A DNA stretch of 64,000 nucleotides from Streptomyces sp. NBC_01445 (lineage in GTDB: Bacteria > Actinomycetota > Actinomycetes > Streptomycetales > Streptomycetaceae): NCBI RefSeq assembly GCF_035918235.1, contig NZ_CP109485.1, positions 4,588,001 through 4,652,000 on the forward strand. Direction: 5' to 3'. The notes under the pieces are model-generated. The model did no database searches and was not told where the DNA came from. It saw only the letters and a program-made list of their open reading frames with translations. Shown here piece after piece: positions 1 through 6,672 of the stretch. Each line of letters opens with the position of its first letter. The first letter of the stretch is position 1. Position numbers and translations under genes: made by a program.

Positions 1-2247
1 CGCGAACCCCGGCGGCGCCGTCCCCACGGCCGCCGTGGGTCCCGCCCCCGCGGGCCCGCGCCGCACCAGCTCCCCCAGCGTGCGTCGCACACCGGATTCG
101 TAGGCGGAGAACGTGCGGCGCAGCAGCGGCAGTACGTCCGTGAACGCGTCAGCGGAAACTCCCGTCAGCCAGCCGTCGACGAGTGCGAGCAGCCGCTCGT
201 CGTGTACGAGGAGCAGCCCGCCGCCGGATCCGCCGCCCACGAACCCCTCGATCCACGCGGCGGCCTCGGCGGGCCCGGTGCCGGGCGAGAGGGCGAGCCC
301 CATCAGCCGCGCGGCCTCGCCCTCGGCCAGCTGTCCGTCGTCGAGGAGCAGCCGCGCGCACCGCCCCCGGATCACGCCGGCCACACTGTCGCGTACGGCG
401 AGGACCCGCAGCACGGAGTGCCAGCGGCCTCTGTGTCCGGCCGTCCCGTCGTCCTCCAGGAGCCCCACCGCCGCGTGCACCGCGTCCACATGGCCGCGCA
501 TCTCGGCCGCGGCGTCCCCGTCGAGCCCCGCGCACGCGGGCGGCAGGCCCACGAAGACGCGCTCGGCGAGACCGGCCGCCACCTCGCTCAGCGCCTGGGT
601 GTCCGTCCCTCGCACATCGCCGTAGCGCAGGGAGCGGACGAGGGCGGGCAGGGCCTGGGCGAGATGGCCGACGTCCGCGTCCATCGCGGCGCGGTCGGCG
701 AGCACACGCATCACCACCGGGAGCGCATCCGGCAGTTCGGCGAGGAGGCAGCGCTCCGCGAGGGCGGTGACGTCGGCGAGGGCCGGCGCGCCGATCGCGT
801 CCGCCTCGGCTCTGGCGGTGGCCGCCGAGAGCACGGTCGTCCCCCAGACCCCCGCCTCGGCGACGCGCACGGACAGCTCGGGCTCCCAGCGCAGCCGCCA
901 GGTCTCCCGGAACGTGCCCGTGGAGGCGCGCATGGACCGTGCCGGTTCGCCCCAGCCGACGTCGAGGAGGCGGAGCCGGTGCAGGAGCCGGCTGCGCGCC
1001 GCGTCGGTCTCCCGGCGCAGGTCGAGCTCCAACTCCCGCTCCAGTGCCTCCGGTTTGAGCCGCAGGGAGCGCTGCAGCCGCGTGAGGTCGCGTTGCAGCG
1101 GCACGGCGGGCGCCGCGTCCGGGACCTCGCCGAGTACGTCCCCGACGACGAGCCTGTCGTGGACGAGCGACAGCGGTACGTCCGACCCCTCGCACATCAC
1201 GGCGCGGACCGCGTCGGTCGTCTCGGTCAGCCCGGCCAGCGGACGGCCCCGCATCGCGGCGAGCGTCTCGGCGAGCCGCACCGCCTCGATGACGTGCGCC
1301 GACGACACGATCCTGTCCTCGTCCCTGAACAGCCCGGCGACCTTGGTCATCCAGCGTTCGACGGGCCGGTCCGGGGCGCTGAACAGATGCCCGTACCAGC
1401 CGGGCGAGTCGATACCCGCTCCGTATCCACCGGTCCGGGCGAGCCGGCGGTGCGTCCAGGGCACCCAGGTCATGTCGACCTTGGCCTTGGGCAGCCCCTT
1501 GAGGACGGCCCGGTCGGCGGCGACCGTGGTCTTCGTGCGCAGCGCGGGAACGTGCCAGGCGCCGCACACCACCGCGACACCGTCCCCGAACTTCTTCTGT
1601 GCGGTGCGCAGTTGAAGGCGCATATAGGCCTCCCGCACGAGGTCCCGCTCGTGCCCGCCGTCGCCGTACTCCTCCCGCAGCGCCCCCATCGCCTCACCGA
1701 GCGCCTCGAACGGCGCGAACGCGTCCCCCGACGCGCCCCGGTGCTCGATGACGTCCTCCCACCAGCGCTCCGGGTCGTCGTGCCCCGCGGTCTCGGCGAG
1801 TACGGCGAGCGGATCGACGCGCATCGCCTCCCTGGAATCCTCCTCGCCCTGGCCCGCGCCCTGCTCCCCGTCCCCCTCGGGGTCGTCCGGCGTCGCGCCC
1901 TGGTCGCGCAGGGCCAGGCTGTGCGCCGCCGGCAGGTCGATGAAGCGGACCGGAACGTCCCGCTCCAGGGCCCACCGGATCGCGACCCACTCCGGGGAGA
2001 ACTCGGCCAGCGGCCAGAACGCGGAGCGCCCCGGCTCGTCCACGACATGCGCCAGCAGCGCGACCGGCGGCACCATGCCCTCGTCGGCGGCGAGGGCCAC
2101 CAGGGCGTCCGCCTCGGGCGGCCCCTCGACCAGGACCACACTCGGACCCGCCGCGTCGAGCGCGGCCCGGACAGCCCTGGCCGAACCGGGGCCGTGGTGA
2201 CGCACCCCGAGCAGCAGCGGTCCCTGCCCCCTCCCCCGCTCGCTCAT
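1..2247 (-). CDS. DUF5682 family protein, partial (C-terminus beyond left edge)
   Basis: Reads from an ATG at 2245-2247 to the left edge with no stop, giving 749 residues in the window. The start overlaps the stop of the MoxR gene as ATGA, so the two are probably translationally coupled. The N-terminus has GVRHHGPGS (about residues 14-22), VLVEGPPEAD (about 38-47) and later CGAWHVPAL (His232). This order (a G-x-x-H motif, an acidic VE motif, then GAxH) resembles the TIKI/TraB/erythromycin-esterase-like putative hydrolase superfamily. That fold assignment is my inference from motifs. The rest is helical and rich in Ala, Arg and Leu. DUF5682 genes are known to travel with MoxR ATPases, SWIM proteins and VWA-domain proteins; a VWA gene may lie just outside the window. 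Function is unknown. Confidence 0.85.
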   Translation of the reverse strand, partial: MSERGRGQGPLLLGVRHHGPGSARAVRAALDAAGPSVVLVEGPPEADALVALAADEGMVPPVALLAHVVDEPGRSAFWPLAEFSPEWVAIRWALERDVPVRFIDLPAAHSLALRDQGATPDDPEGDGEQGAGQGEEDSREAMRVDPLAVLAETAGHDDPERWWEDVIEHRGASGDAFAPFEALGEAMGALREEYGDGGHERDLVREAYMRLQLRTAQKKFGDGVAVVCGAWHVPALRTKTTVAADRAVLKGLPKAKVDMTWVPWTHRRLARTGGYGAGIDSPGWYGHLFSAPDRPVERWMTKVAGLFRDEDRIVSSAHVIEAVRLAETLAAMRGRPLAGLTETTDAVRAVMCEGSDVPLSLVHDRLVVGDVLGEVPDAAPAVPLQRDLTRLQRSLRLKPEALERELELDLRRETDAARSRLLHRLRLLDVGWGEPARSMRASTGTFRETWRLRWEPELSVRVAEAGVWGTTVLSAATARAEADAIGAPALADVTALAERCLLAELPDALPVVMRVLADRAAMDADVGHLAQALPALVRSLRYGDVRGTDTQALSEVAAGLAERVFVGLPPACAGLDGDAAAEMRGHVDAVHAAVGLLEDDGTAGHRGRWHSVLRVLAVRDSVAGVIRGRCARLLLDDGQLAEGEAARLMGLALSPGTGPAEAAAWIEGFVGGGSGGGLLLVHDERLLALVDGWLTGVSADAFTDVLPLLRRTFSAYESGVRRTLGELVRRGPAGAGPTAAVGTAPPGFA

Positions 2248-3383
2248 ACGCTCACCTCGCGGCACGCGCGGTAGAAGTCCTTCCAGCCGTCCCGCTCGCG
2301 GACCACGGCCTCCAGGTACTCCTGCCAGATCACCCGGTCCGCGGCCGGGTCGCGGACGACGGCCCCGAGGATGCCCGCCGCGACGTCGGACGGCCGCAGC
2401 ACCCCGTCCCCGAAGTGGGCGGCCAGCGCGAGCCCGCTCGTCACGACCGAGATCGCCTCGGCCGTGGACAGCGTGCCGCTCGGCGACTTCAGCTTCGTAC
2501 GCCCGTCCTCGGTGACGCCGCTCCGCAGCTCCCGGAAGACCGTGACGATGCGGCGGATCTCATCGGTGCCGTCCGGAGCGGCCGGCAGGTCGAGGGAACG
2601 GCCGATCTGGTCGACGCGGCGCGAGACGATGTCGACCTCCGCCTCAGCGCTCTCCGGCAGCGGGAGCACGACGGTGTTGAAGCGGCGGCGCAGCGCGCTC
2701 GACAGGTCGTTGACCCCCCGGTCCCGGTCGTTCGCCGTGGCGATCAGGTTGAAGCCCCTGACGGCCTGCACCTCCTGGCCCAACTCCGGTATCGGCAGCG
2801 TCTTTTCCGACAGGATCGTGATCAGCGTGTCCTGCACATCGGCCGGGATGCGGGTCAGCTCCTCGACCCGGGCCGTCATGCCCTCGGACATGGCGCGCAT
2901 GACGGGGCTGGGCACGAGGGCGTCCCGGCTCGGGCCGTGCGCGAGAAGTCGCGCGTAGTTCCACCCGTAGCGGATCGCCTCCTCGGGGGTGCCCGCCGTG
3001 CCCTGCACGAGCAGCGTCGAGTCGCCGCTGACGGCGGCCGCGAGATGCTCGGAGACCCAGGTCTTCGCGGTGCCCGGCACACCGAGCAGCAACAGGGCGC
3101 GGTCGGTGGCGAGCGTGGTGACGGCGACCTCGACGATGCGGCGCGGCCCCACATACTTCGGCGTGATGACGGTCCCGTCGGGCAGCGTCCCGCCGAGCAG
3201 ATACGTGGCGACGGCCCATGGCGAGAGGCGCCAGCGCTCCGGGCGCGGCCGGTCGTCCTGCGCGGCCAGCGCCGCGAGTTCGGCGGCGAAGGCGTCTTCG
3301 GCATGCGGCCGCAGCGCCTGCGCGGCGCCCCGGTCCCCCGCGGACGCGGCGCTCTTCTCGGTCGGTTCGACGGACACGGTCAT
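2244..3383 (-). CDS. MoxR-type AAA+ ATPase
   Basis: A 379-residue AAA+ ATPase. Walker A is GVPGTAKT (101-108). The Walker B region is ARVEELTRIP (171-180), with Val-Glu-Glu where most MoxR proteins have Leu-Asp-Glu. Sensor 1 is NLIATANDRDRG (from 212) and the arginine-finger strand LRRRFN is at 231-236. MoxR ATPases usually act as chaperones that remodel or insert cofactors into partner proteins, often with a VWA partner. The start has a strong ribosome site (GAGGGGGAT) a few bases upstream. It is first in the leftward operon, followed by the DUF5682 gene with an ATGA overlap. Its promoter mirrors that of the SWIM gene, so both arms probably respond to the same signal. The substrate is unknown. 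Confidence 0.92.
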   Translation of the reverse strand: MTVSVEPTEKSAASAGDRGAAQALRPHAEDAFAAELAALAAQDDRPRPERWRLSPWAVATYLLGGTLPDGTVITPKYVGPRRIVEVAVTTLATDRALLLLGVPGTAKTWVSEHLAAAVSGDSTLLVQGTAGTPEEAIRYGWNYARLLAHGPSRDALVPSPVMRAMSEGMTARVEELTRIPADVQDTLITILSEKTLPIPELGQEVQAVRGFNLIATANDRDRGVNDLSSALRRRFNTVVLPLPESAEAEVDIVSRRVDQIGRSLDLPAAPDGTDEIRRIVTVFRELRSGVTEDGRTKLKSPSGTLSTAEAISVVTSGLALAAHFGDGVLRPSDVAAGILGAVVRDPAADRVIWQEYLEAVVRERDGWKDFYRACREVSV

Positions 3384-3460: not shown

Positions 3461-3483
3461 ACCGTGCACCACGCCACTGACAA
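3461..3483 (-). promoter_or_regulatory. PafBC/RecA-NDp-type promoter of the MoxR operon
   Basis: On the minus strand TTGTCAGTG (3483-3475) is followed by 8 bases and CACGGT (3466-3461). The published RecA-independent damage promoter of actinobacteria is TTGTCRGTG-N8-TAnnnT. The upstream element matches fully; the -10 matches except for C in place of the first T. It is one half of a perfect 13-bp inverted repeat with 3531-3543. The predicted start lies about 70 bases upstream of the MoxR ATG. Confidence 0.65.
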
Positions 3484-3543
3484 TCACCGGTCGCACGCCG
3501 TTGACCTGTGCGAACACCCGCGCCACGGCCGATTGTCAGTGGC
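3473..3543. repeat. 13-bp perfect inverted repeat in the divergent promoter region
   Basis: GCCACTGACAATC at 3473-3485 and its exact reverse complement at 3531-3543, separated by 45 bases. Each arm contains the TTGTCAGTG damage-promoter element facing outward, so the repeat is explained by two divergent promoters of the same class. Confidence 0.9.
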
Positions 3544-3555
3544 GGGACCTACCTT
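3533..3555 (+). promoter_or_regulatory. PafBC/RecA-NDp-type promoter of the SWIM gene
   Basis: TTGTCAGTG (3533-3541), 8 bases, then TACCTT (3550-3555): a full match to TTGTCRGTG-N8-TAnnnT. The start codon is at 3563, 8 bases after the -10, with no ribosome site between, so the transcript is probably leaderless. Confidence 0.8.
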
Positions 3556-3562
3556 CGAGAAC

Positions 3563-4969
3563 ATGACTCAGCAGGGGGTGCGCTGGACGGCGGACCAGGT
3601 GCTGGCACTGGCGCCTGACGCCCCGTCACGCAAGGCGGGAAGCAAACTCGGCGTCGCCGGACCTTGGTCGGAGGCGGGAAGTTCGGGCGAAGGGATGGTG
3701 TGGGGGCTCTGCAAGGGCAGTGGCAGCAAGCCGTATCAGACGGTCGTGGATGTCGCGGACGCGGCGGGCCCGGCCTACAAGTGCAGTTGTCCGAGCCGTA
3801 AGTTCCCGTGCAAGCACGCCCTCGGGCTCCTCCTCCTGTGGGCGGGGGCGGACGGCTCGGTGCCGGACGCGCAGACACTTCCGGACTGGGCGGAGCAGTG
3901 GGCCGAAGGGCGCAGGAAGCGGGCGCAGACCAAGCGGGAGACGGATGCGGCCGGGGGCGCCGCCGCTGATCCCGAGGCCGCGCGCCGCAGGGCCGAGCGG
4001 CGCGCCGAGCGGGTCACGGCGGGCGCGAGCGAGCTGGAGCAGCGGCTCGCGGACCTGCTGCGCGGCGGCCTGGCCTCGGCCGAGCAGGCCGGTTACGGGA
4101 TGTGGGAGGAGACCGCGGCCCGCATGGTGGATGCACAGGCACCCGGACTGGCCGCGCGGGTAAGGGAGTTGGGGTCGATACCCGCGTCCGGCCCCGGCTG
4201 GCCGGTGCGGCTCCTGGAGGAATGCGCGCTGCTGCACCTCCTCGACAGCGGCTGGCTGCGCCGCGACCTGCTCCCCGCCGGACTCTCGGCGACGGTCCGC
4301 TCCCGCGTCGGACTGCCGTCATCGGCGGAAGGGCGGCCCACCCGGGACCGATGGCTGGTCCTGGCGCAGTACGACCAGGCCGACAGCCGCCTCACCACAC
4401 GCCGGACGTGGCTGTACGGGACGGAGGCCGGCCACACCGCGCTCCTCCTCTCCTACGGGGCGGCGGGCCGCGCCCCGGCGCTCTCACTGCCGGTCGGCCT
4501 TGCACTGGACGCCGAGCTCTGCGCGTACGCGGGCGACGGGCAGCTCCGCGCCGACCTGGGCGAACAGTTCACGGCGCCCGCCCCAAGTCCCGTGCGGCCC
4601 AAGGGGGCAGGTGTGGCGGAGGCGGCGGCTCGGTACGGGGACGCGCTGGGCCGCGACCCATGGCTGGAGTCGTGGCCGGTGACGCTGAGTCGGGTCATAC
4701 CCACGCCGGATGAGGCGAGCGGTAGCGGTAGCGGCTGGCAACTGGCTGATGCGGACGACGACTTGGCGCGACCCCACCCGGCGCGACCGGCCTCGGAGCG
4801 GCTGGCGCTCCCGATCACGCCGCAGGCCGCTTCGAGCCCCGGGCTGTGGCGGCTGGCGGCGCTGTCCGGCGGAGCCCCCGTCACCGTCTTCGGCGAGTGC
4901 GGCCACCGGGGCTTCACCCCTCTCACGGCCTGGCCCGAAGGCCCGGGAGAAGCGGTGGCACTGTGCTGA
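3563..4969 (+). CDS. SWIM zinc-finger domain protein
   Basis: A 468-residue protein starting MTQQGVRWTADQVLAL. The N-terminal SWIM finger is CSCPSRKFPCKH, with ligands Cys74, Cys76, Cys83 and His85 (CxC-x6-CxH). SWIM fingers bind DNA or mediate protein contacts. The middle (about 125-165) is charged, Arg/Ala-rich and probably helical. The C-terminal half is a conserved globular region with no motif I recognise. The ATG at 3563 is chosen because it begins the SWIM-family N-terminus and lies 8 bases from a strong -10, consistent with a leaderless mRNA. The longer open frame upstream is not used. It forms a rightward operon with the DUF5691 gene 62 bases downstream. The promoter suggests DNA-damage induction. 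Confidence 0.9.
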   Translation: MTQQGVRWTADQVLALAPDAPSRKAGSKLGVAGPWSEAGSSGEGMVWGLCKGSGSKPYQTVVDVADAAGPAYKCSCPSRKFPCKHALGLLLLWAGADGSVPDAQTLPDWAEQWAEGRRKRAQTKRETDAAGGAAADPEAARRRAERRAERVTAGASELEQRLADLLRGGLASAEQAGYGMWEETAARMVDAQAPGLAARVRELGSIPASGPGWPVRLLEECALLHLLDSGWLRRDLLPAGLSATVRSRVGLPSSAEGRPTRDRWLVLAQYDQADSRLTTRRTWLYGTEAGHTALLLSYGAAGRAPALSLPVGLALDAELCAYAGDGQLRADLGEQFTAPAPSPVRPKGAGVAEAAARYGDALGRDPWLESWPVTLSRVIPTPDEASGSGSGWQLADADDDLARPHPARPASERLALPITPQAASSPGLWRLAALSGGAPVTVFGECGHRGFTPLTAWPEGPGEAVALC

Positions 4970-5031: not shown

Positions 5032-6672
5032 ATGAACGGACCGTCGGCCGCCGGCGCCACGCCCACCAGCACCACCACGGGTGACCCATGGGAAGAGCTG
5101 GTCACCGTCGCCCTGCTCGGAACGGACCGGCGGACGCCGCCAGGACACTCGACCGGCGCCGACGCACCCACCGCGCTGCTCGACGCCGCCGCCGTACAGA
5201 CCGTACGACGGCGGGCCGGGCTGCGGCCCGCACCCGCTGCCGCGCTTCCGGCACGGGCGGCGGACGACCCGCGGCCCCCGCTCCCCGCCCCCGCGCGACG
5301 CAGACTTGCGATGCTGCTCACCGACCGCCCCGGCACCGGAGGCGGCCGCCGCGGCACGGCCCCCGACCTCATGGAGTTGCTGCCCCAGTGGCTGGCCGGG
5401 GCCAACGCAAAGGGGTACGCGGCCCCTCCGGATCTCCTCCCCGCACTCCTCGACGCGGCGCGCGGGCGCACGGATCTGCGGCCGCTGGCCCTCACGTTCG
5501 CCGGCCCGCGCGCACTGTGGCTGGCCCGGCTGAACCCGGACTGGAAGTTCGCGCTCCGTGCCGCCCCCGGCGGCGGCACTGCACTCCCGGCGCCCGAGGA
5601 GGGGGCAGACGTGCAACGCCTGTGGGAGGAGGGCCTGTTCGCCGAACGGGTCGCGCTCCTGGCCCGGGTGCGCGCACACAGCCCGGACGCGGCGCGGGAC
5701 CTGCTCGCAACCACCTGGGCCGCCGAGCGGGCCGAGGACCGGCTGATGTTCCTCGACTCGCTGCGGTCTGGGCTCGGCGACGCGGACGAGCCGTTCCTGG
5801 AACAGGCATTGTCCGACCGCAGCCGCAACGTCAGAGCCACGGCCGCCGAGCTGCTCTCCGCACTCCCCGGCTCGGCGCTGGCAGCCCGGATGGCCTCGCG
5901 CGCCGCCTCCTGCGTCGCCGTCGACCGCACCCAGGGCGCGGCGACGATCACCGTCGAGGCGCCGCACGAGTGCGACGCGGGCATGGAGCGGGACGGTGTC
6001 GCCGCCAAACCGCCGACGGGCCGGGGTGAACGCTCGTGGTGGCTGGGCCAGTTGGTCGAGGCGGCGCCGCTCGGCTGCTGGACCGCGCGGTTCGGCGGGC
6101 GCACGCCGGAAGAGATCGTCACGCTGCCGGTGGCCGACGACTGGCAGCGCGAACTGCACGCCGCCTGGTGCCGGGCCGCAGTGCGCCAGCGGGACGCCGT
6201 ATGGTCGCGCGCGCTCCTCGGCGCACCCGCCTCACCGGACGCCGGAGGCCCGGGCGCCGTATCGCTGTCCGAACGGGCGAAGCTCCTCGGCGCACTCCCC
6301 GACGGTGAACGCGCCGAGTGGGTGGCGGGGTTCATCGCGACGCGCGGCCTGTCCGAGGCGTTCCAGCTGCTCGGGGTCTGCGCCCAGCCCTGGGCCGAGG
6401 CGCTCGGGCGGGCAGTGGTCGACGCGCTGAACATCGCGCGGGACGCGGGCAGTTACCCCTGGAGCTTCAGCGGCGTCATGGGCCTGGCCGAACGCTGCCT
6501 GGACCCCGCCGAAGCGTCCCGGCTCGAAGGCCTCACCGCCACCCCGGACGAACCGGAGGACGCGGCCCCCGGAGCCGGCGGCTACTGGTCGGAAGCGTTC
6601 CAGCGCCTGGTCAGCACGTTGCGCCTGCGGCAGGCGATGCGCGACGAGTTGAGAGGGGCGCAAGCGCGATAG
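5032..6672 (+). CDS. DUF5691 family protein
   Basis: A 546-residue protein of the DUF5691 family, recognised by the N-terminal ELVTVALLGTDRRTPPG block and its pairing with a SWIM gene. The ATG at 5032 has a strong ribosome site (GGAGAGGAG) about 5 bases upstream. The sequence is mostly alpha-helical. Segments such as FLEQALSDRSRNVRATAAEL (about 258-277) look like a HEAT-type repeat; that is my reading of the pattern, not an established domain. There is no signal peptide or membrane segment, so it is cytoplasmic. It probably works with the SWIM protein and the divergent MoxR/DUF5682 pair. Molecular function is unknown. Confidence 0.85.
   Translation: MNGPSAAGATPTSTTTGDPWEELVTVALLGTDRRTPPGHSTGADAPTALLDAAAVQTVRRRAGLRPAPAAALPARAADDPRPPLPAPARRRLAMLLTDRPGTGGGRRGTAPDLMELLPQWLAGANAKGYAAPPDLLPALLDAARGRTDLRPLALTFAGPRALWLARLNPDWKFALRAAPGGGTALPAPEEGADVQRLWEEGLFAERVALLARVRAHSPDAARDLLATTWAAERAEDRLMFLDSLRSGLGDADEPFLEQALSDRSRNVRATAAELLSALPGSALAARMASRAASCVAVDRTQGAATITVEAPHECDAGMERDGVAAKPPTGRGERSWWLGQLVEAAPLGCWTARFGGRTPEEIVTLPVADDWQRELHAAWCRAAVRQRDAVWSRALLGAPASPDAGGPGAVSLSERAKLLGALPDGERAEWVAGFIATRGLSEAFQLLGVCAQPWAEALGRAVVDALNIARDAGSYPWSFSGVMGLAERCLDPAEASRLEGLTATPDEPEDAAPGAGGYWSEAFQRLVSTLRLRQAMRDELRGAQAR

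Follow-up and report, generated by a model that had tools for sequence, protein, structure and literature searches.

The window analysed here, meaning the whole stretch of 64,000 nucleotides, carries a gene cluster arranged on both sides of an intergenic region, which separates the gene for a MoxR-type ATPase (2244-3383, minus strand) from that for a SWIM zinc-finger protein (3563-4969, plus strand) and contains two copies of the sequence TTGTCAGTG pointing apart. The genes and sites are as follows.

Outside the window, just beyond its left edge, minus strand: VWA protein of 399 aa at the end of the MoxR operon (Pfam VWA_CoxE).
1-2265, minus strand: DUF5682 protein of 800 aa, running past the left window edge (PF18934, 990 bits; 26% identity to YehM).
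2244-3383, minus strand: MoxR-type AAA ATPase (Pfam AAA_5; 39% identity to E. coli YehL).
3461-3483, minus strand: leftward mirror site ahead of the MoxR operon, TTGTCAGTG-GCGTGGTG-CACGGT, with GCGTGGTG as N8 (motif match).
3473-3485, plus strand: left arm of the inverted repeat, GCCACTGACAATC (perfect over 13 bp with the right arm).
3503-3514, plus strand: third conserved element between the arms, GACCTGTGCGAA in the window, usual form GACCTGCnnAAA (seen in relatives).
3531-3543, plus strand: right arm of the inverted repeat, GATTGTCAGTGGC (perfect over 13 bp with the left arm).
3533-3555, plus strand: predicted rightward RecA-NDp/PafBC-type promoter, TTGTCAGTG-GCGGGACC-TACCTT, with GCGGGACC as N8 (motif match, conservation).
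3563-4969, plus strand: SWIM zinc-finger protein with a predicted leaderless start (structure model).
5032-6672, plus strand: DUF5691 protein (PF18944, 588 bits; structure model).

The initial annotation of this locus spoke of a four-gene cluster, but the number has to be corrected to five, because the VWA gene continues the left operon; SWIM-DUF5691 thus lie to the right and MoxR-DUF5682-VWA to the left. The perfect 13-bp inverted repeat that it described, carrying the motif both ways, is present as stated. Its claim of a full rightward match to TTGTCRGTG-N8-TAnnnT followed by a leaderless SWIM gene also held, as the 64-kb window has no other strict match (0 in 100 shuffles), the site is conserved among relatives, and the SWIM ATG at 3563 follows 7 nt past the TACCTT hexamer. 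As for the proposed leftward mirror promoter, the nine bases, the N8 and CACGGT ahead of MoxR were all found, with 77 nt from CACGGT to the MoxR start, but the -10 element is CAnnnT instead of TAnnnT, and this half of the proposal is less firm. The mirrored pair (CACTGACAAT, 20-50 bp, TTGTCAGTG) was detected in exact form in 178 of 295 same-genus genomes and in none of the control. The 64-kb window includes no match to the LexA SOS box (actinobacterial core GAAC-N4-GTTC) and none, with up to 3 mismatches, to the consensus of RDRM, the operator of DdrO control; a PafBC-type site stands there instead.

After a search of the whole 11.47-Mb host genome, the strict motif TTGTCRGTG-N8-TAnnnT was identified at 33 places, against 0 for a reversed-pattern control. 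Ten likely repair genes behind strict sites, chosen by eye from 30 loci, were matched by family search: those for RecA, XseA, RadA, DnaX, UvrB, Ung and an Ogt-type methyltransferase, together with a RarA-like ATPase, a DinG/YoaA-like helicase and a PhoH-like protein, of which the '-like' matches fell below the curated cut-off. Further strict sites lie ahead of genes for a DEAD helicase and for a protein that carries a RecD2 HHH domain, but also ahead of genes for TnpB-like proteins (by eye), a sigma factor, ribosomal S6 and more, so this list is a description and not a test of enrichment. The layout of the SWIM gene, with the start codon 7 nt past the hexamer, is common to five sites, namely those of recA, xseA, radA, dnaX and the rarA-like gene. 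Both PafB and PafC are encoded near PafA in this genome, as judged from the WYL, WCX and HTH_PafC domains. In a LexA study of Streptomyces venezuelae, the PafBC motif of Mycobacterium smegmatis is given as not conserved in that species and the question is left open (PMC9380542); the count of 33 against 0 in a strain other than S. venezuelae argues that such a motif set exists in the genus. SCO6735 of Streptomyces has a RecA-NDp promoter and is UV-inducible (PMC5087735). The sites described here have TTGTC[AG]GTG-N8-TAnnnT and the position ahead of repair genes in common with the known RecA-NDp/PafBC promoters (S. rimosus recA, the mycobacterial regulon and SCO6735), but differ in that two copies face apart, at spacings that move in steps of about 11 bp, and that one has a conserved C at -12. 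One identical sequence accounts for three of the 33 strict places, which are located near the chromosome ends, perhaps in terminal repeats. Separately, two of the genes preceded by the motif are TnpB-like by eye.

SWIM homologues were found in 141 of 150 same-genus genomes, and for the analysis of both sites 90 of these 141 were used, consisting of the 30 best-scoring and 60 more distant ones. The right site was present in strict form in 85 and in relaxed form in all 90; the start codon follows it at 7 nt in 84 genomes, at 6 nt in four, and at 8 nt and 3 nt in one genome each. Among other actinomycete genera, 53 genomes gave a DUF5691 match, and we analysed 40 of these (one piece being incomplete), using a scoring matrix built from the other motif sites of the host genome. 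Of the 237,142 positions in these 40 loci, the 26 with the highest scores each came from a separate locus; every one shares its strand with DUF5691 and precedes that gene by 1-1.7 kb, and 24 have GTG 6-8 nt further on. The remaining 14 loci scored lower, comprising five weaker sites in the expected layout (scores 9.7-11.7), the one incomplete piece and eight loci with a weak site or none. A similar site was recognised in Nonomuraea and in Nocardia farcinica, and of 11 actinobacterial loci from a scan of named genomes only two showed the site, Paenarthrobacter and Prauserella. The reading of the right site as a RecA-NDp/PafBC-type promoter with a predicted leaderless SWIM start is supported, because the site is deeply conserved, the motif is shared with repair genes, and PafB and PafC are encoded in the host.

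Several loci of this collection differ in the SWIM-position gene. On reading the sequence, two loci of one other genus seemed to encode it without the zinc-finger part, and in three further loci it carries no SWIM pattern; all five still keep the motif and the close start codon. The same two loci carry, on the minus strand upstream of the SWIM-position gene, a gene that is DinB-like by eye and has its own CAnnnT-type site and near start codon.

The model of the SWIM protein shows a SWIM domain at residues 5-103 and an OB-like C-terminal half at 253-461, along with a helical part, while that of the DUF5691 protein is helical and HEAT/ARM-like in its repeats; in Foldseek searches with these two models no hit reached an E value of 0.001, and the OB and HEAT folds, which rest on middling Z values, are to be taken as likenesses. 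Sequence searches of the PDB with the SWIM, DUF5691 and DUF5682 proteins returned nothing, and the MoxR protein has midasin and NorQ as PDB relatives. The closest named relatives of the DUF5691 protein are from Streptomyces. In RavA-ViaA and NorQ-NorD, a MoxR ATPase acts with a VWA partner; the window cluster differs by the addition of DUF5682, DUF5691 and SWIM as constant partners.

In a set of 27 loci from other phyla and some actinobacteria, MoxR or DUF5682 was located downstream of SWIM on the same strand in 26, and both were so located in 19. The Nonomuraea locus and those on plasmids of Deinococcus, Rhizobium and Methylosinus also run in this one direction. The initial annotation knew of no description of the cluster as a DNA-damage system, but what is apparently the same cluster has been published as radiation-induced in Deinococcus, where ddrTUVWX (Deide_18730 to Deide_18690) is a five-gene operon with SWIM first and a CoxE-like VWA gene last, is induced by radiation under IrrE/DdrO, and is given as of unknown function (PMC5552922); a second paper likewise lists it with function unknown (PMC8072749). 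A plasmid of D. taeanensis carries SWIM-DUF5691-AAA-hypothetical-DUF5682-VWA, the SWIM protein being 37% identical to that of the window. With D. taeanensis as a stand-in for D. deserti, and from its first and last genes, ddrTUVWX appears to be the same cluster, and the gene set SWIM, DUF5691, MoxR, DUF5682 and VWA is found together in Streptomyces as well. The two differ in that ddrTUVWX is a single operon under the repressor DdrO with RDRM, whereas in the Streptomyces family the cluster is split in two and carries an activator-type site. In D. taeanensis the sequence TTACGCCAGAAACATAA, just past the -10 element, was found by eye, agreeing with an RDRM consensus at 12 of 17 positions; the regular-expression search had missed it.

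A known damage box was detected upstream of SWIM in five of 80 homologous loci from all phyla, namely one PafBC site (Prauserella), two RDRM-like and two LexA-like boxes, and with only five of 80 we do not claim a universal damage link of the cluster. The Rhizobium, Methylosinus and Methylobacterium loci showed no GTTC-N7-GTTC. E. coli yehLMPQ resembles the window cluster in that genes for MoxR, DUF5682, VWA and SWIM proteins form a row, with identities of YehL, YehM and YehP to the window MoxR, DUF5682 and the outside VWA protein of 39, 26 and 36%, but its SWIM protein is not alignable by BLASTP and DUF5691 is not annotated in the row; no SOS box was found upstream of yehL. The host genome itself carries a second cluster with MoxR and a DUF5682-VWA fusion (C1:7989239-8000596), which has the same motif at its head and in which a DUF4132 protein and a long unmatched protein precede MoxR. 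Of 61 genomes, 24 gave a match to the DUF4132 gene, with the relaxed motif upstream of the best match in 20 of the 24 (the first gene only being examined), and in E. coli the DUF4132 gene yehI adjoins yehLMPQ. The literature search, which did not reach most of the subscription literature, gave no paper joining SWIM, MoxR, VWA and Streptomyces, and nothing on the cluster in Streptomyces among the matches listed.

Even with the promoters as described, the cluster might be a module for stress or biological conflict, of the MoxR-VWA ternary kind, that reads the damage alarm and does not itself serve repair. MoxR-vWA pairs form the core of ternary conflict systems described in print (PMC8195603), relatives of the cluster reside on plasmids of rhizobia and Hymenobacter, the distribution is patchy for DUF5691 (92 of 394 class genomes) and for DUF5682 (10 of 149 phylum genomes), and the bpMoxR profile gave the window proteins a weak score, though one below the cut-off. 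Against this, SWIM is present in 141 of 150 congeners, Pfam scans of the cluster detected no effector domain, and PADLOC gave no match for the four window proteins (the VWA protein being outside that scan). We regard a conflict module as rather unlikely. The third part of such systems, VMAP, iSTAND or TERNS3, appeared in neither the Pfam nor the PADLOC scans.

Only in the Streptomyces family did we see two sites in a divergent layout, and no MoxR P-loop was found upstream of SWIM in the 40 actinomycete pieces from outside the family, for which 3 kb was taken. The simplest account would be a split of the operon in an ancestor of the family, which would explain the two promoters, the second keeping the halves co-regulated. 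The initial annotation had made its reading depend on both arms being kept in close relatives; the right arm is kept, in relaxed form, in 90 of 90, but the left arm is unrecognisable in 19 of the same 90, the left site being found in 71 by a relaxed arm pattern that requires CAnnnT. Its -10 element was CAnnnT in all 69 rows in which the left arm was detected, and TA in 0 of 69. These two observations, together with the top-scoring sites lying on the SWIM side in the 40 pieces outside the family, would suit a right copy that alone acts as a damage promoter, with the left copy as a relic or auxiliary docking site and the MoxR operon expressed from another promoter. Both arms are, however, present in 13 of 20 loci from other genera of the family, and TTGTCRGTG-N8-CAnnnT itself is in excess in the host genome, with 22 sites against 3 in the control. 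Of these 22, a total of 20 loci were at hand and ten were checked by family search; six belong to DNA replication or repair, namely LigA, a DnaQ-like exonuclease, a topoisomerase A subunit, Lhr, HolB and polymerase IV, while among the other four were a pentapeptide-repeat protein and a methyltransferase, the last two giving no match within the limits set. The start codon lies 6-7 nt past the CAnnnT site at LigA, Lhr and polymerase IV. Some CAnnnT sites need not be promoters, because long open frames overlap many of the 20. CAnnnT nonetheless looks like a real subclass of these promoters, probably weaker and not recognised before, and since such sites also stand ahead of ligA, lhr and the gene for polymerase IV, the left copy probably works as a promoter. 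We regard the right-only arrangement as improbable.

The distance between the two arms was 44-45, 54-56, 67-68, 78-79, 89 or 99 bp in 68 of 71 genomes, thus moving in steps of about 11 bp, with off-phase spans of 125, 128 and 182 bp in the other three and of 47 bp in one of 13 loci from other genera of the family. For the middles of the six classes up to 100 bp, a period of 10-11.5 bp fits better than 99.86% of random draws, and better than 97.6% when the three long spans are added. On a quick tree built from short stretches of the adjoining coding sequence, at least 19 changes of class are needed, and the phase has therefore been kept through many insertions and deletions. The third element, GACCTGC or its reverse, is located 7-8 or 19 bp from one arm, positions one turn apart; its orientation varies between lineages, and the arm that it accompanies switched at least 4 times on the quick tree. 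In spacer alignments the inverted orientation scored better than the direct (mean 3.32 vs 1.44; better in 215 of 342 pairs, worse in 119), and the flipped element has perhaps arisen by inversion of the whole spacer, which stays only a possibility because the 342 pairs are not independent. That a dimeric regulator uses the repeat as its operator, with the PafBC-motif match as secondary, might be suggested by the perfect 13 bp, the helical-step spacing and the third element between the arms, but is very improbable, as the right site keeps N8, TAnnnT and the close start codon in other genera, the spans of 44 to 99 bp and more are unlike a usual operator, and further copies of the nine bases, also with N8-TAnnnT, stand before repair genes at other places in the genome.

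Taken with the anatomy of the region, its conservation, the motif that it has in common with repair genes and the presence of PafBC, all seen directly in the genomes, we consider it probable that the intergenic region controls transcription in both directions in response to DNA damage, through two PafBC-type promoters, one for each half of the operon. In mycobacteria, PafBC is activated by single-stranded DNA upon damage. Active PafBC would let RNA polymerase with sigma-A start at promoters that carry TTGTCAGTG near -25. A leaderless SWIM-DUF5691 mRNA would then start from the right copy, and the MoxR-DUF5682-VWA operon from the left copy, which has C at -12 and is probably weaker, so that the mirrored second site would hold both split halves under the same signal. 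Induction by damage and dependence on PafBC in Streptomyces are predicted from the sequence. The arms being spaced by helical turns, a fixed rotational relation of the two polymerase complexes is therefore suggested. The products may form a damage-induced machine, in which the SWIM/OB-like protein would touch nucleic acid, DUF5691 would serve as a scaffold, and MoxR with VWA would remodel a target using ATP.

In a wider and tentative proposal, which we put forward as possible, the five-gene cluster would be a widespread damage machine wired independently in each phylum, by PafBC in actinomycetes and by DdrO in Deinococcus, in which the SWIM finger and tandem OB parts bind single-stranded DNA and bring MoxR/VWA, as a remodeller driven by ATP, to lesions or to protein-DNA complexes that have stalled. 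For the cluster, which is present in many phyla, a second phylum would then show a link to DNA damage, through an unrelated regulator, and the convergence of unrelated damage regulators on the same cluster in two phyla would therefore point to its function. For Streptomyces, it offers a direct test of the PafBC response, a question left open in the published work (PMC9380542), and the divergent promoters of the family may serve as a natural series for studying how one short region accommodates two sigma-adapted polymerase complexes.
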